From an uncultured Clostridia bacterium (lineage in GTDB: Bacteria > Bacillota > Clostridia > UBA1381), in contig CALXWJ010000077.1 in assembly GCA_944392335.1 (NCBI GenBank), positions 1 to 64,000 of the forward strand: a DNA stretch of 64,000 nt, read 5' to 3'. Positions 43,364 to 61,400 of the stretch are shown piece after piece. Under the pieces are notes generated by a model, which was given only the letters and a program-made list of their open reading frames with translations, searched no databases and was not told the DNA's origin. A program made the position numbers and the translations under genes. Position 1 is the first letter of the stretch. Every line of letters starts with the position of its first letter.

Positions 43364-45874
43364 TCATTCTCCTTTATTTTCCGTTTCTTGAATATTATCC
43401 TGCACATCTTCCGTTTCATCATCCTTTTCGGTAACTGCCATACTGACCAGTTTTACTCCGTCCGCAAGCTTCATTATTCTTACTCCCTGCGTCTGCCTGC
43501 CGTATGTGCTTATTTCCGAAACATGTGTTCTTATAATTATCCCGTCGGATGTAATCAGCATAATGTCATTTTCATCGTTTACTGTAGCCAATGCTGCAAC
43601 TTTTCCTGTCTTCTCAGTCAAACGATATGTCAAAATACCTTTTCCGCCCCTGTTTTGCGTCTTATATTCCGAAAGTTCTGTCTTTTTACCGAATCCGTTT
43701 TCAGTTGCAACCAATAAAACTTTATCCTCCTGTGCAAGACATGCACCCACAACAAAATCATCTTTCTTTATAGATATGCCTCTTACACCTCTTGTTGTTC
43801 TTCCCATTGCACGCACATCATTTTCATCAAATCTTATTGCCATACCATTTCTTGTTCCTATTATGACATTCTTTGTACCGTCGGTTAAAAGAACATTTAT
43901 AAGACTGTCACCCTCAACAAGCTCTATTGCCCGTAAACCGCTGTTTCTTATCTTTGAATAATCCATAATCCCTGTTTTCTTTACAGTTCCGTTACGTGTT
44001 ACAAACATAAGATAATTTCCGTCTTCAAAGTCTTTTATTGGAATCATTGCTGTAATTTTTTCATCCGTTTCAAGAGGTAAAAGATTTACAATTGCAGTAC
44101 CCTTTGCCTGTCTTCCTGCTTCAGGTATCTGGTAACCTTTCAAACGATATACTATACCTTTTGTTGTAAAGAACAAAATTGTATTATGAGTTGATGTTGT
44201 AAATATGTGCTCAACAAAATCTTCTTCTCTTGTTGACATTCCCGAAATGCCACGTCCGCCTCTGTGCTGGGACTTATATGTGGTAACAGGAACTCTTTTT
44301 GTATATCCGCTGTGAGTAAGCGTTATTATGACATCTTCTTCTTCTATAAGATCCTCATCGTCAATCTCATTTATATTCATGGCAATTTCGGTTCTTCTCT
44401 CATCACCGTACTTATTCTTTATTTGAGTAAGGTCATTTTTTATAATATCCAGAACAACACTCTCATTTTCAAGTATATTCTTATATTCTGATATTTTTTG
44501 TTCAATTTGCTGATATTCTTCTTCTATCTTTTCTCTTTCAAGACCTGATAAACGTCCTAACTGCATCTGTACAATTGCAGTTGCCTGTGTTTCCGACAAA
44601 CTGAATCTTTCCTGCAATGACTGTTTGGCATCGGGAATTGATTTTGAAGAACGAATAACATTTATTACTTCATCAATATAATCTATTGCAATTTTATAAC
44701 CTTCAAGTATATGGGCACGTTCTTCCGCTTTTTTTAAATCAAATTTTGTTCTTCTTACGATGACATCTTCCTGATGAGCAATATAATAATCAATTATCTC
44801 TCTTAAATTCAGTATTTTCGGTTCCTTGTCCACAAGTGCAATCAAAATTGCCCCGAATGTGTCCTGCATTTGCGTAAGCTTATACAGATTATTAAGAACA
44901 ATATTGGGATTTGCATCTTTTTTCAAATCCACAATAAGACGCATATTTTCATCAGATTCATCACGTGTTGAGGCTATACCGTCAATTTTTCCGTCACGTA
45001 CAAGCTCGTTTATATGTTTTTCCAGTTTTGCTTTATTTACCTGATATGGCAGTTCTGTAATAAGTATACGTGTTCTTCCATTTTCAAATTCTTCTATTTC
45101 GGCTTTTGCACGCATCGTTATCTTGCCTTTTCCTGTCTGATATGCGCTTCGTATCCCGCTTTTTCCCATAATAATACCGCCTGTAGGAAAATCTGGACCT
45201 TTTATATAATTCATTATTTCATCTATGGTTATTTCGGGATCTTCTATTGTTGCGATTATTCCGTCTATGACTTCACATAAATTATGAGGAGGAATATTTG
45301 TTGCCATACCTACGGCAATTCCTGCCGAACCGTTTACCAGCAGATTTGGAAATCTCGAAGGCAATACACTTGGTTCAAGACGTTTATCATCATAATTTGA
45401 AACATAATCTACGGTTTCCTTTTCTATATCAGAAAGCATTTCCGCCGCAAGTTTTGCCATTTTTGCTTCGGTATAACGATATGCCGCCGGGGGATCTCCG
45501 TCCACCGAACCAAAGTTACCCTTTCCCTGTATAAGAGGATATCTCAATGAGAAATCCTGTGCAAGTCTTACCATTGCATCATAAACGGAACTGTCACCAT
45601 GGGGGTGATATTTACCTAGAACATCTCCGACAGTAGCAGCTGATTTACGAAAATCATTTTCGTAAAATAAATTTGATTCATACATATCATATAAAATACG
45701 TCTGTGAACCGGTTTCATTCCGTCTCTGACATCAGGCAGTGCACGGCTCACAATAACACTCATTGCATAATCAATATATGATTTCTTCATTTCACTGTTC
45801 AGCTCAACATTGACTATTTTCTGATTTTCGAGTGCCTGCATATCAAACTCTTTTTCCTTTGTCTTTTTCGCCAT
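43364..45874 (-). CDS. gyrA: DNA gyrase subunit A
   Basis: GyrA cuts and rejoins DNA with GyrB to add negative supercoils. The 836-residue protein has the active-site Tyr134 in [10 protein letters not shown], the quinolone-resistance region [10 protein letters not shown] with the usual Ser95 and Asp99, the GyrA-box-like QHRGGRG and six C-terminal beta-pinwheel blades. gyrB is not adjacent here. It overlaps the lipoprotein cyclophilin start. Confidence 0.97.
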
Positions 45875-45917
45875 AATTCAGTTTACCTCCATAACTGCCG
45901 ATCATTTATAACCGAGA

Positions 45918-46188: not shown

Positions 46189-49128
46189 TTATTTCTTATC
46201 ATATTCATAAACAGGATAAGCATAGGTATCTTTTTCTTCCCAATGCATTCCCAAAGGCTTTAAAAATTCATGTATTACACCGTCAACGACTTCATGATAA
46301 TCATTTGCGCAGTCGTCGAGCATGATCCATGGCTGATCCCCGTTATAGATTTCAACCTTTCCGGTATCGTTCTTTGTTATTTTTATGTTTTCTTCTCCTA
46401 TCCTAAATTCAAATAAGTTATTGTTCTTTACAATTGTTTCAAGCTTTGGATTTTCATTCTCACTTGCTTCGATAACGGTCACGATCACCGTGTTTTTATC
46501 ACCCTCAAAATCACAGTATATCTCATGTACGGGGAAATACCTGAACTGATCCTGTGTTTCAAACCCCGACCAGCCTCTTACCGGATCTTTTTGCCCGCAC
46601 ACTTTTTTATACTTCATATTATCCATATGCCTGATAAATACATTAACGTTATTTTTTTGTTTTGTATATATTTCATTGTTTGCAAGCACTATATCATCAT
46701 CGGAAAATCCGTCCATTTCCCAAGACACCTTTTTGCCGTTTTTAAGTGTATATGAAAATCCCCCCGCAAGTGAGCTTGACAAATGCCAAAGCTGAGTATA
46801 TGTATGCGGTTTTTGTGATTTGAGCCTGTCCACAATGATCCACAGACCGCTTCTGTTCAAAAATACTATTTCTCTTTTATGTACCGCATCATTGCACGAA
46901 TAATACTCATCCGAATACTCTCCTTCGGTATATACGATATTTTCACTCTCATACCATCTGTACCCTGTCGTATCAGGATATTTTTCCTGATGTATCTGTT
47001 CGTTCAGGCGGAGTCTTGCCTGCCCCTTATTGTCAACAAGGATCGTGTTTCTTGAATATGTGCTTGTCATATATTCATCGGCTTCATCCATCATTTTATA
47101 ATCTTCATCATTCATGTTTTGTCTGAGCCTGTAACTGGTCCTTCCGCCCGTCCTTATCAAAAACCGTCCGAAAGCCTGTATCTGAATGTCGCAAACAGCC
47201 TCTGCCGAATGTCCCGAACCTACTCTCGGTGCAAAAAAGTACATATATCTGTCTTTTCTGTCCCATCCGTCTCTTATAACACTTGTCCCTCCGTACGGAA
47301 AAAAGACCGATTTGAATTTCGGCTTGTCCCCATCGGGATTTACCGAAAGTTCCTTTATTCTGTCAATATCATATGTTGAAATATTCTCTTTGCTGACACA
47401 ACATACATAAGACATATAATCTTCAAATTTATCACTCTTTGGATTCGGTGCAACGACCTGACATCCCGTATATCCGCATATAGGCATATCGTTTATTACA
47501 GGAGAAATTGCCGATAACATTCTGGCGGTATTTAATATCTTGTTTTTTACATCATCAAATTTATGAGCATTCCCGATTCTTTCCACCAATGCAAAATAGG
47601 ATTCTATCGGCGCATGATTATAATGAAGCGCCTGTTCGACTGCCGTTCCGTCCGGATAAAGGACTTTGTCAAGCCCGTCGATCCATCTGTTGTATGCAAA
47701 TTTTTCATACAGCGAAGCATACTTGAACTCGGAAAACATTACACAAACCGAAATGATCCAGCCCGAACAATGCGAGATCTGGTTTGAAACCTTTTCTCTT
47801 CCGTCCTTTAATGAAGGATATAAGCCGTAACTGCTAAGCGATACTGCAAGTTCGGCAAAAAGCTCCGGCGGAAAAAAATCGTATTCTTCTTTTTTAAGTG
47901 TATTTGAAATTATCGCAATGCTTGTCATTATTCTTAAGGAACGCTTACCCGGATTAAATCCGTTTCCCCACGCCCATGTCAGAGGGGTATCGTTGCATTC
48001 TCTCAGTATTTCATCACTCAAGACGTCAAACTCCGCTTTCTGTCTTATAACATATGCTTTTACCAATTTTATATACAATTCAAGATATTTTATGTCCCTT
48101 GTTTTGTTGTACTTATCTGCAATATTTTCAAATTCGGGCAATCCTTCATATACGTCAAATTCGTAGCTGCCTTTATAAAAAACATAATCGAACACATCGT
48201 CAATTTTACTTAAATAATCATAATCCCTAAGTATTGTGGGCGCGTCATTCTTCACTATGTATTTTTGCTTAAATTCCTTAAATTTCTTATTTCTGAATTT
48301 TTTAAAGGCCGTTTGATATTCTCTGTTTAAAATATCAGTTTTTAATTCTTTTGAAAACTCATCCTCTCCCAATAAATTATAAAATCTTTCCGCGATTTTT
48401 GTTTCGCTCATTTCGGGATATATCGGTTCGGGCCACTCTTCTTTTTCGTAAAATTCACTTGTTTTGCTGACTTCTTTTACGCTTTTTGCGACCATATTAT
48501 CCGAAACAACTCTCATTCCGGTGACATAACAAATATAGTCGGGCGGAACATAGCTTTCTTTATCCGCAGTTAAAAAAGCGTCAAGCGCGACCGAGCCTCC
48601 CATGACAGTTCTGAAATGATCGTATTTTTTGTCAAAACACCATTCATCAGCATTTCCTATCATATCATACAAACCGTAAGGATTCGGTTTTTTTATCCCC
48701 ACATCATGGGTTATTTCATCGTTTCTTGATTCCCATACATAAGGGATACAATCAGGATACTCTGTATCACCCCAGAAATATTTTGTGTTTGTTCCGCCTC
48801 GGGCGGCATATTTCCATTCAAGTACCTTTGCAAGCCTGTAACCGTTTGCTGTTTTATCGATACAGCCGTCATCAATATCGATATTCCCGTTTTTATACAC
48901 TTGGGAATTAAAATCAAGATATACAGCCTTAAGACCCGCAAGCTCTGACAAGGCATTGCAAAACTTTACCGCGTCATACCAGCTTATACACCCCACAGGC
49001 TGGTTTCCTTTTCCTCTTCCCACAGACAAATCATTATAACCTCTGTTTTTTGCCCATAATCTTACCGCGTCCCAGTCCTTTTTGGTCACCATATATTCAT
49101 CAATCGCAAAATCATTAAGATAAATCAT
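46189..49128 (-). CDS. FGE-fold/heparinase II/III-like fusion protein A
   Basis: The 979-residue protein has an N-terminal formylglycine-generating-enzyme-like (sulfatase-modifying factor) domain (about 1-212, with GNQPVGCISWYDAVKFCNAL and GLYDMIGNADEWCFD) joined to a helical toroid (about 330-620) and a beta-sandwich (about 620-960) like those of heparinase II/III lyases, including RVGSGHSAEA and YSRNTILVDN. The paired catalytic Cys of true FGE are absent, so this domain probably binds ligand. No signal peptide suggests a cytoplasmic enzyme. GGGGGATGAG precedes its ATG. It is downstream of its close paralogue. Confidence 0.8.
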   Translation of the reverse strand: MIYLNDFAIDEYMVTKKDWDAVRLWAKNRGYNDLSVGRGKGNQPVGCISWYDAVKFCNALSELAGLKAVYLDFNSQVYKNGNIDIDDGCIDKTANGYRLAKVLEWKYAARGGTNTKYFWGDTEYPDCIPYVWESRNDEITHDVGIKKPNPYGLYDMIGNADEWCFDKKYDHFRTVMGGSVALDAFLTADKESYVPPDYICYVTGMRVVSDNMVAKSVKEVSKTSEFYEKEEWPEPIYPEMSETKIAERFYNLLGEDEFSKELKTDILNREYQTAFKKFRNKKFKEFKQKYIVKNDAPTILRDYDYLSKIDDVFDYVFYKGSYEFDVYEGLPEFENIADKYNKTRDIKYLELYIKLVKAYVIRQKAEFDVLSDEILRECNDTPLTWAWGNGFNPGKRSLRIMTSIAIISNTLKKEEYDFFPPELFAELAVSLSSYGLYPSLKDGREKVSNQISHCSGWIISVCVMFSEFKYASLYEKFAYNRWIDGLDKVLYPDGTAVEQALHYNHAPIESYFALVERIGNAHKFDDVKNKILNTARMLSAISPVINDMPICGYTGCQVVAPNPKSDKFEDYMSYVCCVSKENISTYDIDRIKELSVNPDGDKPKFKSVFFPYGGTSVIRDGWDRKDRYMYFFAPRVGSGHSAEAVCDIQIQAFGRFLIRTGGRTSYRLRQNMNDEDYKMMDEADEYMTSTYSRNTILVDNKGQARLRLNEQIHQEKYPDTTGYRWYESENIVYTEGEYSDEYYSCNDAVHKREIVFLNRSGLWIIVDRLKSQKPHTYTQLWHLSSSLAGGFSYTLKNGKKVSWEMDGFSDDDIVLANNEIYTKQKNNVNVFIRHMDNMKYKKVCGQKDPVRGWSGFETQDQFRYFPVHEIYCDFEGDKNTVIVTVIEASENENPKLETIVKNNNLFEFRIGEENIKITKNDTGKVEIYNGDQPWIMLDDCANDYHEVVDGVIHEFLKPLGMHWEEKDTYAYPVYEYDKK

Positions 49129-49322
49129 TTCTCATCCCCCTTTATCCATTCTGTTTAACATTACCATTATCCATTAAGCTGTACCGGTATTGTAAAACGA
49201 TTTAAACATCCGAAATTTTCATATGAAAGTCCGAAATAATAATTTAAAAAATAACAAAAGCTGCATATTTACTTCATTCGAGTTTTTGAATTTTTCAAAA
49301 TGTCAATTATTATGTTCCTCCC

Positions 49323-52232
49323 TCAGTAAATATAACACGGTACAGAATATCCGTTTTCCTCTATCCAAGAAAATCCCAATGGTGCTAAAATTTTGTTTAT
49401 TTTTCCGTTTTCGCGGGCATAGCTTTTTTCACCGTCAATAGCGATCTCATCTTCACCGAATAATGCCTTGAATTGTTCGGTGTCTGAAAACTCAATAACC
49501 GCCTTCTTCCCGTTTTGATATGTCAATTCACATCCGTTCTGCGTTTTTGAGACATTATTTACCGGGCTTTTTTTATCTTTTGAAACGGCAACAACGGTCA
49601 ATACCGTTGATTCGCCGTCGGGCGTCCACTTTACTCTGATATCGGTTTTCGGCACTCTTTTTGACTGTATGCCGGGTGCAAGCCACCCCGACGCGGGAGC
49701 TGTTTGTTTATATTTTCTCTCATATGCCAGCGCTTTTGATGAAAACTGATACATAAATATATTGGGAGCATTTTCGCTTTGTGTGAAGATCACGTTGTTT
49801 TTTGTTTTTATCTCACTGTCTTCATAACCCCACATATCATATTGTTTTTTTAATGCGACCCCGCCCTCATAACGCGCTTTGGGCATAAAATGCCAGCACT
49901 GCACACATTCTTCCTCTTTCGCGTTAACCGTGTCAAAAACAAATAAGATTTCACTTTCTATATCGTAAATTATCTGTCTTTTGTGGGTCTTCGCGTTTGA
50001 ATCCACATATCCGTCGTTGTATATCCCCTCGGTATAAACAAATTTTTCCGATTCATAATATTTATAACCGCACACATGCTCCATATCAACCGAAAGATTA
50101 TTTTCCCCGTCTTCAAGGCGTTTTTGATTTTTCCCGAAAGTCACGGTGTTTCGTCCGTATGATGTGTGCTGATATTCATCTATGTCCTCAATAATCTCAA
50201 GCTGTGAGGGATGGCAGTATTCTTTTATATTGTAGCTGGATCCTCCCGCCGAAACAAGCATCGGCATACCGAAGCCCCAAAGCTGAATTTCATTTATATT
50301 GCTTGCGGCGTGTCCTCTTCCCGGGGGTGCCGCAAAAAAATATATCATCCGGGAGGTATATTGCCAGCCGCTTCTTAAAATCGTTATGCCGCCGTAAGGA
50401 AAGTGCAGGTTTTTATATTTCGGAGTATCATGGGAATCCTTTAAAAGAGCATTAACTATCCGTTCCTTTTCAGGCCACTGCATTTCTTTCCAGAAGGTTT
50501 TATGATACAATTCATAAAGCTCTTGTTTATGTTTTTCCAATGCCTCTTTGTCATTTATGTTAGGAGGATATGTGCTTGCCGACGTTGATAATGCAGGATA
50601 ACCCCCTGTCGGAATAATTGCTCCCGCAAGATATCTTTCAACAAGGTCGTTTCTGTTTTTTAATGTTTCTGCGGTTTTCTTATCACATAAAAGTCCTTTT
50701 ACCGAATTATATGTATTGGGTATTGCACCGTTATACATATATGACTGTTCAAGCGGCGCGCCATCCCTTCTTGTAGAACCGCAGAAAGCATCAAAAAGCC
50801 GTTTTTCGGCAATCGTTCTTACAGTTTCGGCAATTTTAAAATCAGAATAGACCCTTACGATTTTCAAAAGTGCTCTTGATGAGTGGCAGGCTTGATTAAA
50901 TATGTTTATCCTACCGTCCTTTATCATGGTATACAAATTATCGCACATTATGAACACTGCGGTTTGTGCCACAACAACCGGCGGCAAAAGCTCAATATCA
51001 CAGCCATGATTTACCGCATTCCAAAATGCGGACAATATCCCCATACACCTTGATGCGGCTTCAAATCCGTTATTCCATGCCCAGCTCTGTTCGGTCTGAT
51101 GCTTCTGTGTCAGCATTTCATCATCCATACAGTCAAACTCTGCTTTATGCCTTACAAGCATTGAATAATAAAGCTCCATGCATTTTTTCCAATAACGCTC
51201 GTCACCGGTTTTTGAATAAAGCAATCCGAGATATGTGGGCTTATCTATAAGATGATGTATGTCCCTTTGTCCCGATTTCCCGTACCATTTTACATTAAAA
51301 TCATATTTTAAATATTCTTCCTTTTCCTTGTCAAAATCCTGACCGCTGTTATGAATACCCTCATCAATCTCGTTTTCTCCGAGACGTTTTACAAAAAGTT
51401 CACGATATCTTTCAAGAATTTCTTTAGAAGTTTTTGCGTTTTTTACATAAAGCGCATCCACGCCGTCTCCAAGCTCCTGACAAAGTCTTTTTGCAACGGC
51501 GTCCTCCGACATATCGGTATACTGTGGTTTTAGTGTAAGATGTTTTCCGAAAAATGTACTTTTTCTCACTTCACACTCATAATTCGGTGCATCAATATCA
51601 TCGCTTACAACCCTCATACCTGTTTCATAACAATGATATTTAGGTGAAGTATATGTATGAAATCCGCTTTTCGGTATACTGTCAAAGGCAACAGATCCGC
51701 CCATCATTATTCTGAAAAAGTCCTTGTATTTGTCAAAACACCATTCAAACACATTTCCCGCCATATCATAAAGACCGTAAGGATTCGGCTTTAAAAGTCC
51801 TACCTCATGGGTTATACATGGCTGTGTTGCAATACCACACCATGCATATTCATTTTCCGGCAAAGGTATATAATCATCTCCCCAGAAATATTGAGTTTTC
51901 GTTCCGCCTCGGCAGGCATATTCCCACTCTTTTGCAGTAGGCAGTCGATAACCGTTTGTATTTTTAACATTTTCCTCAGAAAGATTTGATTTTCCTGTTT
52001 TATATATCTTTCCATCTGTATAATAGCACGGTTCAAGACTCATAAACTCTGACAATGCATTGCAAAACTTCACCGCATCATACCACGTTATACCTCCCGC
52101 CGGTTTTTTTCCATATCCTGCAGCGTCAGATAAATCATCATATCCATGTTCCATACCCCAAAGTTTTACTGTATCCCAAACCTCTTTTGTTATCTCATAT
52201 TCAGATATTGAAAACCTGTTTAATTTCTTCAT
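49323..52232 (-). CDS. FGE-fold/heparinase II/III-like fusion protein B
   Basis: The 969-residue paralogue has the same layout as protein A: FGE-like domain (about 1-215, GGITWYDAVKFCNALSEF and GLYDMAGNVFEWCFD), a toroid region with WAWNNGFEAASR, and a beta-sandwich with PPGRGHAASN, YGRNTVTF and a LAPLGFSW C-terminus. The FGE active-site Cys pair is missing as in A. It lacks a signal peptide. Start at 52232 follows GGAGG. The pair probably degrades an oligosaccharide, but I cannot name the substrate. Confidence 0.8.
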   Translation of the reverse strand: MKKLNRFSISEYEITKEVWDTVKLWGMEHGYDDLSDAAGYGKKPAGGITWYDAVKFCNALSEFMSLEPCYYTDGKIYKTGKSNLSEENVKNTNGYRLPTAKEWEYACRGGTKTQYFWGDDYIPLPENEYAWCGIATQPCITHEVGLLKPNPYGLYDMAGNVFEWCFDKYKDFFRIMMGGSVAFDSIPKSGFHTYTSPKYHCYETGMRVVSDDIDAPNYECEVRKSTFFGKHLTLKPQYTDMSEDAVAKRLCQELGDGVDALYVKNAKTSKEILERYRELFVKRLGENEIDEGIHNSGQDFDKEKEEYLKYDFNVKWYGKSGQRDIHHLIDKPTYLGLLYSKTGDERYWKKCMELYYSMLVRHKAEFDCMDDEMLTQKHQTEQSWAWNNGFEAASRCMGILSAFWNAVNHGCDIELLPPVVVAQTAVFIMCDNLYTMIKDGRINIFNQACHSSRALLKIVRVYSDFKIAETVRTIAEKRLFDAFCGSTRRDGAPLEQSYMYNGAIPNTYNSVKGLLCDKKTAETLKNRNDLVERYLAGAIIPTGGYPALSTSASTYPPNINDKEALEKHKQELYELYHKTFWKEMQWPEKERIVNALLKDSHDTPKYKNLHFPYGGITILRSGWQYTSRMIYFFAAPPGRGHAASNINEIQLWGFGMPMLVSAGGSSYNIKEYCHPSQLEIIEDIDEYQHTSYGRNTVTFGKNQKRLEDGENNLSVDMEHVCGYKYYESEKFVYTEGIYNDGYVDSNAKTHKRQIIYDIESEILFVFDTVNAKEEECVQCWHFMPKARYEGGVALKKQYDMWGYEDSEIKTKNNVIFTQSENAPNIFMYQFSSKALAYERKYKQTAPASGWLAPGIQSKRVPKTDIRVKWTPDGESTVLTVVAVSKDKKSPVNNVSKTQNGCELTYQNGKKAVIEFSDTEQFKALFGEDEIAIDGEKSYARENGKINKILAPLGFSWIEENGYSVPCYIY

Positions 52233-52252
52233 TTTTTCCTCCCTGCAAAATA

Positions 52253-52279
52253 GAGGGTGTTGCATTAAGCAGCACCCTC
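52253..52279 (-). promoter_or_regulatory. Hairpin before FGE-heparinase B
   Basis: GAGGGTGTTGC pairs with GCAGCACCCTC with one G·U around ATTAA. On the minus strand only a short TATTTT follows, so it is a weak terminator of the upstream gene or part of the leader of protein B. Confidence 0.5.
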
Positions 52280-52394
52280 TTCGGGGCTGATTTATTCGCG
52301 AAACAGATAATTTATAATTCACCCATATAGCCTATATTATCTTTCGGGTTTCTTAGTATACTCTGCACTGAATGAAACAGCCGTATAAAATAAC

Positions 52395-55097
52395 TTATTT
52401 AATAACAATAGCCTCAACGTTGGTATAATAATATACTGCACTTGTAATTAATACATCTCCCGGTAATATTTCGTTCTTACTTTCAATTTTTTCAAATTTA
52501 CCTGTTTTTGTATCATATATATACATTACATCTGCAACAACTCTTGGTTTATTGTTCTTTGCATCTGTTATATCTGCCGATGTATTAATAACAACATTAG
52601 ACCCTGATGGATTCTTTATTACAACACCGTAATCATATGACAGAACAGGAGGATCATCTCCTGAAGTATATGAAAAATATTCTTTATTTGCAAGTTCTGA
52701 TATTCTTACGTCTACCCTGAATCCTGTTATATACCCCAGGTCATCTACATTTGCATTAACCATATCACCGACTTTAAGTTCTGCACCTGTTTTGATATAA
52801 TACATGGGCTCTCCGTTTGCATTTTTGGTAACCGATTCCTGACCCAGTTCTTCTTCTCCGTTTGAAATGTAATATTCCTTTCCATTAAGTGCAGTTATTT
52901 TATATGCAACTTCATCATCTAAAAGAACCTGCTCTATTCCGGAAATTGTAAATTTAGCATCAGCCCTCGTATCAACGCCTGATCCGGCAGCGGTATAACG
53001 AATAACCACTCCGTTTATTGTCATTGATTCACTGACATCATATATATCCATAGGCCCATTAATACCGCCATCAGCTTTTACTGACTCAATTGCATAATAT
53101 TTTTCTTCATCTCTATCTTCAGGAACCCTGAGTAAAATATATGTTCCGCCATGATAAATCCCTCCAAAATATCCTCCGTAATATGTTCTTATTTTTTCTT
53201 CACGATACATATTATGGGCAAATACATCATCATTCAATTCCCCTGTAGCAGTATAATCTACAGCTGTGGTAAGTGATGAGAGCTTTCCATATGCATCTGT
53301 TTCAAATACAACAAGCTGAGGAGAATCCAATAATTCTGAAAGTACCTTCGGAGTAACTCGCTGTTTTGTAACTACTTCATCGCTTTCTTCTTCTACTGTA
53401 CCGCTATAAAAGTTAATCTTCTTTGCACCTTCAAGGGTTACCCATTTAGAATCGGACAAGCGAAAAATTCTGAACGTTGCTGCGTCTTCATCCTCTTCAT
53501 CAGGGAAGCATTTTCTCAGATAACCGTAATTTCTTCCTGTTCCTGTTTTAGTGGCATTTTCTACCATTGCATCATCAATTGCTGCCACTTTCCCCGATGC
53601 TGTGAAATAATATCTGTATTCCTTATTAAATTCAATATCTCCGAAAAAGCTTTTATCCAAAGTATAACGTGTCCCGTCATCTAATATCAACTCATCTTCA
53701 TCGGTATTTTTATATATTCCAAGTGTGCTTTTACTGCTTGCTGCAATTGTATACATTGTATCATCAATAGTTCTTGCTATTGATAATACATTCCATGATG
53801 TAAGATCTGACAGAGTAACTTGCTCGCCATCTAAGGTAATAACGACTTTTTTATCATCGGAAGACAAATCAATTATACCCTTATCATTCATCATCAGAAC
53901 TCTTGTTCCCGAAATTTGATCGATTACATAAACCTCATAATTCCAAACAAAAATAATATCATATTTTCCATCAAAATCTGTATCGGACATTTTCACTTCT
54001 CCGGTGTCCGGAATAAGCAGCTGTTCATCTATACTCTCAGCAGTACCAATGTACTGACCGTTATATATGACATTTGCATCAGGGGAAAACTTAATTGTTT
54101 TACTTTTATTCAGTTCATTGCCTTCCTCATCATACTGTATGTACCTTATCGATTCTTTCGATATTTCTTCAATATCATCATCAGATACGCTGATAAAATT
54201 ATCTTTTCTCTCATAGATATCCGCCTTTATAACGGTGGGGTCACCGTCATTATCCTGTATGTATGCGCTAACATATCTTCCAAGATAATTTTTGATACCG
54301 CTTGTGCCGGCATAGTATTCCACCGTATCGATCTGTACTCTTCCCTCAGCTATCTGATCTATACCGTACATATTTACATCCTCGGTCGCGTTTACCCAGC
54401 CTCTGATCATTTCAACATCCATTTCGGACAAAAGCGTTCTTCCCTCAACGATCTGATAGGTTATTTTATCGCTTATGTTTACCACGACCATATCGGCATT
54501 TAAAGTATTAAACAGCACCTTTGCAAACTGTTCTCTCGTTATGGGCGATGATGGGTCCAGAGATATCTGATCAAGTATTCCGCGGGAATCTGCCGTCATC
54601 ATATAATCTATGGTATCTGTTGTTACCATATAGTCATATCCCAGCAGACGCACCATGTCTTTTATTACCGTTTCGCAGGATACGATATTCTCAACGCCCT
54701 GCAAAACGGAAATATCAACGCCGGAGTAATTCATGAGATTTTGAACAGCCTGTGCATAATCATAATAAGTCAAATTTGCCTGAGGCTGGAAATCAACATC
54801 TTCTCCGAAAAATCCCGAAGGATATTCCGACATGATCCCCAAGCGCACGACCAGATCAATCTCATCCTGATAGGGCGACACATATGCCGATGCAGGCTCT
54901 TTGATCTCGGCAAATTCGCTGCTCCAGCCGTTTTGTATATACTGCTCTATGTTTCCGTGTTCAAGCTCGCCCGAATTTTCAAGTCCCTGCCCGGTCTGAA
55001 TGTTTTCGTTTGCCTCTGTCCAGTAATCCTCTGCAAAGGCTGTCATATTAAATACAATAACACAAGCCGTAACAGCTGCCGCAATTTGTTTCTTCAT
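52395..55097 (-). CDS. Large secreted protein with SLH-like N-terminal region
   Basis: The protein of about 900 residues begins with a signal peptide (about 1-24) and has degenerate SLH-like stretches (about 70-210: YQDEIDLVVRLGIMSEYPSG and ITREQFAKVLFNTLNADM). The rest is beta-rich with no recognised catalytic motif. It overlaps the end of the SLH-anchored protein gene, so the two are cotranscribed. Either of two adjacent ATGs can be the start. It may be a structural surface-layer protein. Confidence 0.7.
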   Translation of the reverse strand: MKKQIAAAVTACVIVFNMTAFAEDYWTEANENIQTGQGLENSGELEHGNIEQYIQNGWSSEFAEIKEPASAYVSPYQDEIDLVVRLGIMSEYPSGFFGEDVDFQPQANLTYYDYAQAVQNLMNYSGVDISVLQGVENIVSCETVIKDMVRLLGYDYMVTTDTIDYMMTADSRGILDQISLDPSSPITREQFAKVLFNTLNADMVVVNISDKITYQIVEGRTLLSEMDVEMIRGWVNATEDVNMYGIDQIAEGRVQIDTVEYYAGTSGIKNYLGRYVSAYIQDNDGDPTVIKADIYERKDNFISVSDDDIEEISKESIRYIQYDEEGNELNKSKTIKFSPDANVIYNGQYIGTAESIDEQLLIPDTGEVKMSDTDFDGKYDIIFVWNYEVYVIDQISGTRVLMMNDKGIIDLSSDDKKVVITLDGEQVTLSDLTSWNVLSIARTIDDTMYTIAASSKSTLGIYKNTDEDELILDDGTRYTLDKSFFGDIEFNKEYRYYFTASGKVAAIDDAMVENATKTGTGRNYGYLRKCFPDEEDEDAATFRIFRLSDSKWVTLEGAKKINFYSGTVEEESDEVVTKQRVTPKVLSELLDSPQLVVFETDAYGKLSSLTTAVDYTATGELNDDVFAHNMYREEKIRTYYGGYFGGIYHGGTYILLRVPEDRDEEKYYAIESVKADGGINGPMDIYDVSESMTINGVVIRYTAAGSGVDTRADAKFTISGIEQVLLDDEVAYKITALNGKEYYISNGEEELGQESVTKNANGEPMYYIKTGAELKVGDMVNANVDDLGYITGFRVDVRISELANKEYFSYTSGDDPPVLSYDYGVVIKNPSGSNVVINTSADITDAKNNKPRVVADVMYIYDTKTGKFEKIESKNEILPGDVLITSAVYYYTNVEAIVIK

Positions 55098-58000
55098 CAT
55101 ACCTCACCAGCCTTCTCAATAAATCTGTATATAAGCACTGCCGCCTCTTCCCTCAAAGCGAAATCAGTCAATGTGAATTCTTTCTCGTCTATTATTCCCA
55201 ATGATACGGCTTTATCTGCATATCCTTTTGCCCAGTCGCTTACATTTTCCATATTGCTTTCTTCGGTTTCTATAGCTTCATGGTCTTTTTCATATGCTTC
55301 GATAAGTATTTTTATTATTTCCTCTGTTGTTATACCGTCGTTAGGTCTGAATAATCCGTCAAATCCGACAACAAGATTATTGTTATATGCCGTTTGAATG
55401 TTATCGGCATACCAGTCACCGGCAAAAACATCTGAAAAAACATTATTATATGATGATACATTCAATTTAAGCAGTCTTACCATCAAAGTTACAAATTCCG
55501 CTCTTGTAAGTAATTTTGCAGGGGCAAATTCAGTTTCACTCATTCCTTTTATTATTCCTCTGTCATACAATTCAACAATTTCTTTCTTGTACGGTGATTC
55601 ATTAATATCAACAAAGTTTGTAATCAACGTAGTAGTGCTTTCTTCTGCTTTATCTACAATATCCTGGATCTGAGAAACTACAGAACCGCCGCCTATGGCA
55701 ATTCCTCCTCCGCCGCCTCCGCCGGAAGATCCTCCTGATGAACCACCGGAAGAACTTGTTTTTTGAATTGTCTGTTCACTGCTTCTTACTGTATCTCCGA
55801 CTTTCGGTTCTTTTTCTGAAACAGGTGTCACCTCAAAATAAATTTTTTTACCGGCATCACTGCTCTTTATTGAATAGAATTTATCCTGCGATACTTCTTT
55901 GCCGTCAACATACCATCTGTACTCTGTATCTGCTTCTTTAGCACCGTTTATCTGATAATATTCATACGATCCTGTAACAGTATATCCTGTCTTGACAGTT
56001 CCGCTTATTTTAACATTTTTTGCTTCCGGTTTTGCCGGAAGTGCATACGCCTCACTTAAGGTCGGCTGACCGGAGGCTGTATCTTTTCTCGGTGTAACTT
56101 CAAATTTAATAAACTTTCCCGTATCTTCTTCATTTATTGTAAATTCTGTTCCTGTCAATCCTTCAACAGGCGTATATGTTCCGTCCTCTTTGTCCGATAT
56201 GAGCCATCTGAAATTTGTTCCGTTTTCATCAGTCTGATTTTTATCTGAATATTCATATTCACCTTTTAAAATATTACCTATAGTTGCCTCTCCGGTAACT
56301 TTCACATTAATTGCTTCCGGTTCATATATTCTGCAAAAATATTTTGTCGTATATACTTCACCGACTGTAGGATATGTATCGGTTTTCGGAAGGATATATG
56401 CTTTTACAAATTTATCTCTTAAGACATCATCAATTACAAGTTCTTCCGATACTGCATTTTCAACAGGCAGATATTCACCGTCTAATTCATCAGCAGCATA
56501 CCATTGTATTTCACTTAAGTTTGGATCACCGTTTTCATCATAAAAATCATAACCTGTAATTTTTACACTGCCGTTTTCAAAGTTATCTTCAAATTCCGCA
56601 TTTGTTATAACAGGTGCAAACATTCCGGCAAAAACATCTGTATAGATAGAATTATTCAGATATCCCTTACTGTCACATGGTATAACCTTTATTTTCAGAT
56701 AACAATCAACGTACTCGTCCTGCACTTCTTTTTCTAAAACATCTCCCGTTAAACGTCCCGAATCAATAAGTGTAAATTCACCGTCAGAAGTAGGTGAAGA
56801 ATACACAAAATACTCACTGTTGTTATCATTTGCACCGCTATAATCATATTCTATTGTCAGAATATTATTTAATACATCGGCTGATAGATTTGTTATCTCA
56901 GGTTTTTGAATATCTAATTTTGTGATAACTCCTCCTGCCGCTTCAAATGCAATTTGATATGCATCGTTTAATATTGCCGAATTAACTGCACATATACCGC
57001 TGTCTAATGTCAGTATATATCTTCCGTCTTCAATATTTGTATCAGGTGTTACCGCAAGAACATTATCAACAATCTCATAGGTACATTTCACATCGCTATT
57101 TTCGCTTTCCAGTCTCAGATAATCTTCTATATAATTTTCATCAGGTCTTTGTGAAAATTCAATAACTATTGTATTATCATAAATATCACCGCTTACAACG
57201 TTTAATTCCGGAAGATTCTGTCCGTAATTAATAACAGAGGTCACCGAAAGATCATCAATATATGAAGGTGCCCACCATGCGGTTGAGTTATAATCATAAA
57301 ACCCCGTTGTTCCGGCGGATTTATATGTCATATCATTAATGTCAAATAATTTATTATCATCAATAAAACATTGAATATTATTACCGATTACCGACATTCT
57401 TATATCTACCAAAGATGATTCCGGCGTATACCTTTCTGTTTTGTAAAGCATTTTATTTCCCACATAGAATTTTAACGGTGCCGATAAGTTGTCTGCTGTT
57501 GCCACATCATCTCTTAAATACAATCCATAACCTGATGCCATATCGAATCCGGCACCGTTGGAAGTTACATTTGAACGCATATAGAGCTTATGTGTGGAAT
57601 CCCCGTAGTTGGTATTGTTATTTGCAGGATACTTATATTTGTACTCTACTGTATAGTCTGCACTTCTCCTGTACTGTGGCAAACCGTTTTCATTAATGGA
57701 AAATGATCCGTCATTTGACATCCATCTCATAACATTATATGCTGCGGGAGGCGTTTTGTTGGTTTCATCTCCTATATGTACTCTATCCCATCTGCTTGCG
57801 GTATAATAATCACTTTTTATGTTATCCCCCTCATAAGAATATGGATATACAGGTTCTCCTTCATCATCAAATTCCACATTGAAATCATCAAAAAACAGAA
57901 TATCAATTCCAAACCATCCGGTATTTTGACTGCCTGAAACGGTTATTCCCGAAGTATCCGATAATCCAGGCATTATAACTGCCCTGTAAAATGCTTCGTC

Positions 58001-58348
58001 TGTAAGACCTTCTGCCGGTTTTATTACTACTGAATTGGTTTTATTGGTTACAACATCACTATTTCCGGCGTCTACTCCTTTTATGCTTTCTTTTTGTACA
58101 AAAAATTCATAATCTGATACTTTGGTAATTGTTCCGTCCTTTAAATGTTTTTCCAATACTATATTGTCCTGTACTGTTGATTCATCAATGCAAGCACCGT
58201 CTGATACACCGTTAAAATCAATTATAACCGCACTTTGTGTCGCATTAAAAGATTTGATGCTTAACTTATCTTCTGCCTCAACATTTAACGGTATTAATGA
58301 TATTGCCATTACTGCCGTTGTTAAATATGATATGTATTTTTTTAACAT
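55097..58348 (-). CDS. SLH-anchored surface protein with a shared N-terminal module
   Basis: The 1083-residue protein has a signal peptide (about 1-25), an N-terminal beta module (about 30-375, with FYDYNSTAWWAPSYIDDLSV), several Ig-like repeats (about 460-860, for example EYRWYVDGKEV), a Gly/Ser-rich linker near 868-890 and three SLH domains (about 910-1080). The SLH domains would hold it in the wall through pyruvylated polymers. The N-terminal module is almost the same as in the 1687-residue protein. AAAGGGGA precedes the ATG. The carbohydrate target is unknown. Confidence 0.85.
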   Translation of the reverse strand: MLKKYISYLTTAVMAISLIPLNVEAEDKLSIKSFNATQSAVIIDFNGVSDGACIDESTVQDNIVLEKHLKDGTITKVSDYEFFVQKESIKGVDAGNSDVVTNKTNSVVIKPAEGLTDEAFYRAVIMPGLSDTSGITVSGSQNTGWFGIDILFFDDFNVEFDDEGEPVYPYSYEGDNIKSDYYTASRWDRVHIGDETNKTPPAAYNVMRWMSNDGSFSINENGLPQYRRSADYTVEYKYKYPANNNTNYGDSTHKLYMRSNVTSNGAGFDMASGYGLYLRDDVATADNLSAPLKFYVGNKMLYKTERYTPESSLVDIRMSVIGNNIQCFIDDNKLFDINDMTYKSAGTTGFYDYNSTAWWAPSYIDDLSVTSVINYGQNLPELNVVSGDIYDNTIVIEFSQRPDENYIEDYLRLESENSDVKCTYEIVDNVLAVTPDTNIEDGRYILTLDSGICAVNSAILNDAYQIAFEAAGGVITKLDIQKPEITNLSADVLNNILTIEYDYSGANDNNSEYFVYSSPTSDGEFTLIDSGRLTGDVLEKEVQDEYVDCYLKIKVIPCDSKGYLNNSIYTDVFAGMFAPVITNAEFEDNFENGSVKITGYDFYDENGDPNLSEIQWYAADELDGEYLPVENAVSEELVIDDVLRDKFVKAYILPKTDTYPTVGEVYTTKYFCRIYEPEAINVKVTGEATIGNILKGEYEYSDKNQTDENGTNFRWLISDKEDGTYTPVEGLTGTEFTINEEDTGKFIKFEVTPRKDTASGQPTLSEAYALPAKPEAKNVKISGTVKTGYTVTGSYEYYQINGAKEADTEYRWYVDGKEVSQDKFYSIKSSDAGKKIYFEVTPVSEKEPKVGDTVRSSEQTIQKTSSSGGSSGGSSGGGGGGGIAIGGGSVVSQIQDIVDKAEESTTTLITNFVDINESPYKKEIVELYDRGIIKGMSETEFAPAKLLTRAEFVTLMVRLLKLNVSSYNNVFSDVFAGDWYADNIQTAYNNNLVVGFDGLFRPNDGITTEEIIKILIEAYEKDHEAIETEESNMENVSDWAKGYADKAVSLGIIDEKEFTLTDFALREEAAVLIYRFIEKAGEV

Positions 58349-58413
58349 GCTGTTCCCCTTTCCTTTCTCTGTTACCTGGGTAATTAAAAAACATATTATT
58401 TTATTCCGTTTTA

Positions 58414-61400
58414 TTACTGTATTCCAAATACATTGTCAAAATAAATAAATCCGATTTCTTCCGCTTTTTGCTTATTTACTGTATAATCACCTCCCGCATA
58501 GTCTGTTAAATCTTCAATACTGCATATATATTCACTGTATTCACATCCGCCGTCAGCAATAAGTTTTTCAAGTGTAACGCTTCTTAGCCATGCAGTAGCA
58601 ATAGTACCCGAATTAATCAGAATATTTCCCGTAAACTTATTATATTTCGGTATTGACGGTTTATCCTCCAATATATTCGCAAGATGTTCATATTTTGTAT
58701 ACGGTTCTTTGTTATATTCTACCGCAGTTAATTTACTTACCAGTTTTTCCGGTGCAGGTGCAGGGTTATCAAAGCTGTATAACAGTTCTCCGTTTTCATC
58801 TCTTGCCCAATTGTATATGTCAGAAATTGCTCCAAGATTACCGCAGTCTATAAATATATTGTTCGTTATTGTATTATCTCGTCCGCCGTTTACATAAACA
58901 GCCTGTCTGGTCACATCTTTAAATATATTATTTTTCACCGTAATACCGCTGACTCCGTTGTCTATGTATACGGCAAACGCACCTAATTCACCTTTTGCAG
59001 GTATATTTTCAAAATAATTATGTTCTATCACTGTACCTCGAAGAGTCCAGTCTCCCTCAACGTAAATTGCACCCATATCAGAGGTTTCGGTACATACGTT
59101 ATAAATTTTGTTGTTCTTTATTTCAAGATCATTTCCGTAAATTGTTATTGCCTGATGGTATGTATTGTAAATTTCCGAATTTACAACATAATTTGCAACA
59201 CCGCTCATTGAAACAAGCGCTGTATAAGATCTGTCAAGTCTTTGACAATCATGTATTGAACATCTGTTTACAAAATTACGACCTTTTTTGAGGGTTTGTC
59301 TGTTTCCTCCCGACAAGCTCACTCCTCCGGTTCCCATATCGTAAATTTCGCAATTCAAAAGACCTGATTTAACCGACTCACTGACTCTTGCAGCATTTTT
59401 TGTTCCATTTCTTAAAATACAATTTTCCAATGTAGTATTTTCTGTATTATAAAGGGAAACCAAAGTTTCACCGCTATTTTCAATTGTCATGTTTTTAATT
59501 TTAACATCAGAGCAATTGCTCAAAGATATTAAATTATTTTTAAAATTATAAATATCATATTTCTGATTTGAAAAATTATCAATATAAATATACAATATTG
59601 CACTGTTTATATCATAAAAATATTCGCCCGAAGTATCAAGTTCCTCAAGCAAATTATATACATAATATTCTTTGTTTTGGGCAAAGGACACATTATCTTG
59701 TGCTGTTATTTCAGAATTTTGTACAGATACTTTATATGAATATGAAAAATAATTCGGCATATAATAAATATACATATTATCTGCTGTCAGCCAGTTATTT
59801 ACTCGACTGTCATTACATAAAAATGAATTTTCCGAAATTGTTCCGGTTTTTAAATACCCATCACCTTTATTTGGATATCTTGCCGTATCCATTACTTTTC
59901 CGTTTTCAACCAATTCAAAAGTTTCATCACTGCTGCTTATATATCCATTTTCAAGCATATTTACAGCATATATTGAATCTGCCGCTCCTTTTGGAACCCT
60001 GTTTAATATATTCTCATCTGTAACCTTATAAATATCTTCATTATTTATCGTTTTTCCTGATTTAATAAAAGTTTGGTCTGTTCCTGAACCATTAATTATT
60101 AGTGTGGATTTAGATGCTTCCAAAATATTGTCATAATCACTTATTGTCAGTGTATCTTCAAGAAAGTATTCCCCTTTGGCAGCATCTATAATAAAATTTT
60201 CGTAATACACTCCCTGATTTGCAATATCCTTTACATATTCTACCGCATCAGATATATTGTTAAAAGGTGCCTCAAGGCTGCCGTCAGCCGGCAAAGAGCC
60301 GGCTGACGGATCAACATAAACCACTGTTTGTGCTATACCTGAAACAGTTGTTTTTTCTCCTATAGGAATCATTGTGTTAAGGCTGTCCCAAAGTAATATT
60401 TCAGCGGAATATACCCCTCCTGCATTTTCTATTGAGAGATTATATTCTTTGTATGAACCTATTACAGCTTCTGTTTCATCGACTGCCTTGACAGCTATAA
60501 GATTTTCATCAATATCATATAAAGCAACAACCATTGTATAATCTGTTCCTTCATATGTGTTGTTGTATACGGTTATATTTGCTGTAACCGTTCCGTCCTC
60601 GGAAGGATTTGAAATTTCTGATTTTGTAACAGATAATGATGGAATAACTTCCTGACTGTCATCAACATCCTCAACATATGTTATAAGAATATTGTCAATT
60701 CCAATCTCTGTATTTGGATTTATGGCAAATCCAAGAGCCCCTTTAAATAATCCGCCATAGTTTTCAACCAGTACAGAATAATCATACGTTGCCTCAAGCT
60801 GATCATTTACATAAAGCATGCCTGTTCCGTTTTTATTTAGAGTTTTTATCCTGTATGTTTTTCCCTTTGTAAGATCAAAATTACTGCTCTTTGGTCCATT
60901 ATAGAAGTTGATCCCATGTCCATTATTTATAGAAATATCTCTTGCAGTTCCAAACGAGTAATTTATTGCGTTATCTGGTATCCAGTTATAGGATGAACCG
61001 TGCTGTCTGTTAGAATAAAACATCATTCCTCCGCATTCATTGTACACATAAAGATCAAATTCAGTTATGTATTCAGCATTTGGACTTGTTATAAAATTAT
61101 CACTGTAAATGGCGTCAATAAATTCATCTGTAGACGATAATTTCATCATACCATTATCCCACGATACACAAGGTCTGTTTCTCCACACCTCCGATGATGC
61201 CGACTCCTCTGTATCAAAGGTTTCATTCCAGATTTCAACCCTCTTAAAGCTTTGTTTAAAATCTTCAACGTTAGTATTAAAACTTGTTTTTATACCATTT
61301 GCTTCAACTGTATATTTTTTACCTATTTCAATTTCTTCCAGAGGATCAATAATAACATATCTGCCCTGTATATATACTGTACTTTCTATTTCCTCTCCAT

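Follow-up and report, generated by a model that had tools for sequence, protein, structure and literature searches.

What does a protein do that joins the fold of FGE, a sulfatase-modifying factor, to a heparinase-type toroid? The window that we analysed, a stretch of 64,000 nucleotides from a contig of an uncultured Clostridia bacterium, carries two such genes side by side. p2 (49323-52232, minus strand, 969 aa) and p1 (46189-49128, minus strand, 979 aa) are neighbouring ORFs separated by 194 bases. Both lengths are counted from an ATG with a good purine-rich ribosome site ahead of it; for this ORF pair, an alternative GTG start giving 999 aa is possible. Pfam places FGE-sulfatase (PF03781) at the N-terminus (E 8e-31 in p2 and 3.4e-27 in p1) and Hepar_II_III_C at the C-terminus (E 3e-10 in p1 and 5.1e-9 in p2), in each case far beyond chance. 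In p2, the FGE-fold domain, which is C-type-lectin-like, spans residues 1-212 (51597-52232, minus strand; Pfam match 3-178), and the heparinase-type half covers approximately residues 240-969 (49323-51515, minus strand). The two proteins are 34% identical overall, with 54% identity in the FGE part and 28% in the remainder. AlphaFold2 models built on a 22-row alignment (mean pLDDT 80 for p2 and 72 for p1) agree with Pfam on the fold of both halves in both proteins; the low-confidence parts of the p2 model are residues 118-139 and 180-187 of the FGE domain, and 292-329 and 363-390 at the start of the toroid. A search by hydropathy detected no hydrophobic N-terminal stretch in either protein (best 12-residue values 0.39 and 0.77). 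Thus, the original prediction was right about the span and sizes of the two adjacent ORFs, about their fusion of two folds and about the missing signal peptide. It was also right that the whole architecture belongs to no named family: none is named in Pfam, no NCBIfam model matched p1 or p2 at cut-off, and the papers searched for an FGE-heparinase fusion contained none.

The genomes concerned are drafts (99 and about 440 contigs), as would suit an artefact in which two genes were joined by mis-assembly or a frame error. However, contig 13 of the same genome carries a third copy (C13), and a second species from this genus has orthologues of p2 and C13, making five fusions in total. A scan of genome contigs with one protein returned its orthologue as the sole match. 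The in-frame order is therefore repeated at three loci of one genome and two of another, with no internal stops, and the five fusions form one group with full support in the tree of either domain. An artefact is refuted by this repetition across loci and genomes, and we give it a practically negligible probability. The monophyly of the group in both trees fits a single joining event. The three paralogues are only about 27-34% identical, so the event is old. Values of dN/dS (0.103 for the heparinase half of p2, 0.07 in each half of the contig-13 pair, and 0.07-0.09 for the FGE domain) indicate that both halves are under purifying selection, at 0.07-0.10.

Searches of the other 93 genomes from the order (95 in all) did not find the fusion, and samples of 391 genomes from the class and 398 from the phylum gave no further case. 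We considered a split version in genome G028 and rejected it on present evidence, since the heparinase ORF there (L033) runs into the end of its contig, and the FGE gene, which neighbours a sulfatase, is on a different contig. Relatives on plasmids were likewise rejected: among the matches listed, the FGE part alone is covered, and none covers 80% of the query. Viral contigs yielded no fusion and one single-domain FGE protein (L111:2689-3642, on a contig from a viral collection), which is 35% identical to the first 209 residues of a fusion. Elsewhere in the phylum, an FGE domain precedes GH14/42-like or BNR_2 sialidase-like domains (L077:5094-7880; L103, L105 and L106). A further fusion is widespread in the class: an FGE domain is combined with a flavodoxin domain, in many cases preceded by Cu_amine_oxidN1 (L015:3883-5691, L024:781-2613, L030:778-2685, L028 and L034).

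The N-terminal half has the fold of FGE and has lost the catalytic cysteines of the enzyme. In fold searches with the models, residues 1-214 of p2 matched CarF (5aoh) with Z 21.2 (32% identity) and TvpA (2y3c), a variable protein of Treponema, with Z 17.2; the N-terminus of p1 matched CarF with Z 17.7. Solved FGE enzymes (2q17 and human FGE) carry their Cys pair as GGSYxCxxxxC. This position reads GGSVAFDSIPK in p2, GGSVALDAFLT in p1 and GGSCALDSILE in C13, so that, by alignment, the catalytic Cys pair is absent from all three, as had been predicted for p1 and p2. The domain might still be catalytic by other chemistry and modify the lyase to which it is attached, or some partner protein, given that EgtB and PvdO are FGE-family members named as other enzymes in the weakly matching library, and that the domain is conserved at the dN/dS noted above. 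Against this stand the empty Cys positions and the single sulfatase-family protein found in the genome, which does not contain the sequence C/S-x-P-x-R and hence leaves no evident FGE client; we regard continued catalysis by this domain as highly improbable. From its fold and from the repeated pairing with CAZyme-like domains, we infer that it is a retired enzyme domain that may serve as a ligand-binding or scaffold module. The carbohydrate-binding module of the original prediction would be a plausible form of this.

The C-terminal half is not an unrelated fold. Residues 243-936 of p2 matched HepC of Pedobacter (4mmi) with Z 36.3 over 575 aligned residues, followed by Bacteroides BT4657 with Z 34.4; PL39, PL15, PL21, PL35 and PL17 structures and human DS-epimerase 1 (DS-epi1) scored between about 30 and 22. 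The best match of p1 is also HepC (4mmh, Z 31.4), and PL12 structures are recovered by a profile built from the C-terminal halves (5jmd, E 3.5e-44). The predicted heparinase toroid and β-sandwich are therefore borne out for both proteins. The further suggestion of a new type of lyase or glycosidase is not supported if it is taken to mean a new fold or mechanism: the catalytic half aligns with PL12 over nearly its full length and keeps the triad described below. The fold and the chemistry are known, and the architecture alone seems new.

The profile alignment places Asn446, Tyr500 and His641 of p2 at HepC Asn240, Tyr294 and His424, which act as neutraliser and acid/base (PMC12088678, Table 4). 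None of the five fusions departs from the triad, and nine further heparinase-like proteins keep it as well. The originally predicted pocket in the toroid, with its conserved His and Tyr, is supported; His750 and Arg752 of p2 are invariant too. In the fusions, a Gln follows the triad Asn and an Asn follows the Tyr, a signature that single-domain enzymes of one subclade also carry; the same genome encodes two of these enzymes.

The metal-site residues are not retained. In the PL35 enzyme GAGase II, the metal is bound by His403, Asp405 and Asp421, the counterparts of which in the fusions are Ala or Gly, Asn or Ala, and Ser, Thr or Asn, respectively. Judged by members of the PL35, PL21 and DS-epi1 type, the residues near the catalytic His are missing: the segments read RGHAASN, SGHSAEA and KGHAGEN, the later Asp is Ser, Thr or Asn, and the metal-site residues (His-x-His-x-Asp and the later Asp) are replaced in five of five fusions. 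L033, a relative from another family, likewise has no metal-site residues. Since mutants in the metal ligands abolish the activity of a PL35 enzyme (PMC12088678), this loss could mean that activity is lost as well. The fusions could then be oligosaccharide sensors or binding proteins made of a pseudo-lyase and a retired FGE domain, which would also suit the missing FGE cysteines and the deep divergence of the paralogues. A role in binding only, however, hardly explains why Asn, Tyr, His and the further His and Arg remain invariant at 26-34% overall identity, and we consider such a role unlikely.

The same toroid pocket could instead belong to a uronyl C5-epimerase, as in human DS-epi1, or to another non-lyase enzyme. 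DS-epi1 (6hzn) matches the p1 and p2 models with Z 23.6, small changes in the active site have been proposed to convert a lyase to an epimerase (PMC8006597), and a second tyrosine, Tyr667 of p2, is invariant in the fusions and is a candidate partner for a double-Tyr motif. PL12 lyases are nevertheless the better match (Z 36 versus 24), and DS-epi1 depends on metal ligands (PMC8006597), the corresponding residues of which seem lost in the fusions. We regard a non-lyase activity as distinctly unlikely.

We favour, as a reasonably likely explanation, that p1 and p2 are cytoplasmic β-eliminating lyases with an accessory FGE fold and that their substrates are uronate oligosaccharides taken up by the cell, the original suggestion of imported oligosaccharides being plausible. 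They would belong to the (α/α) toroid and β-sandwich superfamily, with PL12 heparinase III as the nearest relative. ABC transporters would bring in oligosaccharides containing uronic acid, the most likely substrate; Asn446 would neutralise the uronate carboxylate, and Tyr500 and His641, as the acid/base pair, would drive elimination across C4-C5. The unsaturated product would be handed on to GH88-type hydrolases. Catalysis would probably be metal-independent, and, since the metal-site residues are lost, protein contacts, not a metal, probably keep the His641 loop in place.

Large S-layer and beta-helix proteins are encoded upstream of p2 and gyrA downstream of p1, and there are no sugar-transport genes beside either gene, which counts against this reading. 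The contig-13 fusion is accompanied by a two-component pair (a histidine kinase and an AraC-type regulator), a DUF3502 solute-binding protein and a PfkB kinase. L017, a relative in the same genome, adjoins genes for a beta-helix protein and a DUF3502 solute-binding protein; GH88 and GH3 genes lie next to L042, which is a relative of the same subclade from another family; and six matches to the GH88 family occur in the genome. L020, also of the subclade, lies beside phenylalanyl-tRNA synthetase genes and is uninformative on uronates. The surroundings of C13 and of the relatives, with the GH88 matches, support, without proving, a role in taking up and degrading uronate oligosaccharides. The S-layer and beta-helix genes (52455-60084) have a paralogous cluster on contig 23 of the same genome, with 64-70% identity.

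A pattern search identified a palindromic hairpin (AGAGGGTG..CACCCTCT followed by ATTTT) at 52252-52280 on the minus strand, just before the p2 ribosome site. It resembles a terminator or attenuator. Close copies occur elsewhere in the second species, and one of them shows a compensating paired change from A-T to C-G. There was no significant match in Rfam. p2 and its orthologue are approximately 99% identical up to codon 240, except for a patch at residues 61-120, and approximately 77% identical thereafter. Over most of the window sequence compared, identity between the two species is 74-85%, but it reaches 95-99% in the block upstream of p2; within 49323-60191, this tract, the second of high identity besides that at gyrA, runs from about 60 kb and ends at codon 240 of p2. 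Given this pattern, we rejected swapping of modules between species and take the FGE end of p2 to lie at the border of a recently exchanged tract or of a chimeric contig. The second species has an unrelated gene in place of p1. gyrA (43364-45900) is approximately 99% identical between the species, adjacent sequence on the same contig being 70-91% identical, which would reflect either recent interspecies exchange or a chimeric contig.

The combination of FGE and heparinase-type domains seems to be rare and undescribed in the libraries and papers searched, and the fusions apparently represent an undescribed domain architecture for the heparinase superfamily. They suggest that the FGE fold may be a module of intracellular sugar-acid breakdown; annotation pipelines may otherwise label such genes as sulfatase activators. 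Should the enzymes be active without the metal site, they would test how far catalysis in the heparinase fold needs it. Tentatively, we raise a broader possibility: that cytoplasmic carbohydrate-active enzymes of this phylum recurrently use the FGE fold without its Cys pair as an accessory module, one that has gone unrecognised, placed before heparinase-type, BNR_2 or GH14/42-like domains, and that the heparinase form is a metal-free subfamily, marked by NQ, EQ..YN and loss of the metal ligands, with its own oligosaccharide substrate.

Among known systems, PL12 heparinase III (HepC 4mmh and BT4657 5jmd) shares with the fusions the toroid and β-sandwich over 570-580 residues, the Asn/Tyr/His triad and the His before Arg in the sandwich. 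Identity in the structural alignment is merely 13-15%, however, and the fusions have NQ and EQ..YN where PL12 has NH and E...YH, lose the Asp after the catalytic His, and add the N-terminal FGE domain, with no signal peptide seen. PL35, PL15, PL17 and PL39 lyases and DS-epi1 have the same fold and type of triad but score lower structurally than PL12, and PL35 and DS-epi1 have metal ligands that the fusions lack. FGE itself (2q17 and human FGE) resembles the N-terminal half in the overall domain and in the GN..EWC and GGS landmarks, whereas the fusions have no Cys pair and lack roughly the first 30 positions of the domain profile. CarF (5aoh) and TvpA (2y3c) share the FGE-type C-type-lectin fold, at 32-34% identity over approximately 195 residues; TvpA is a variable ligand-binding protein, and both, unlike p1 and p2, are stand-alone proteins with no lyase attached.
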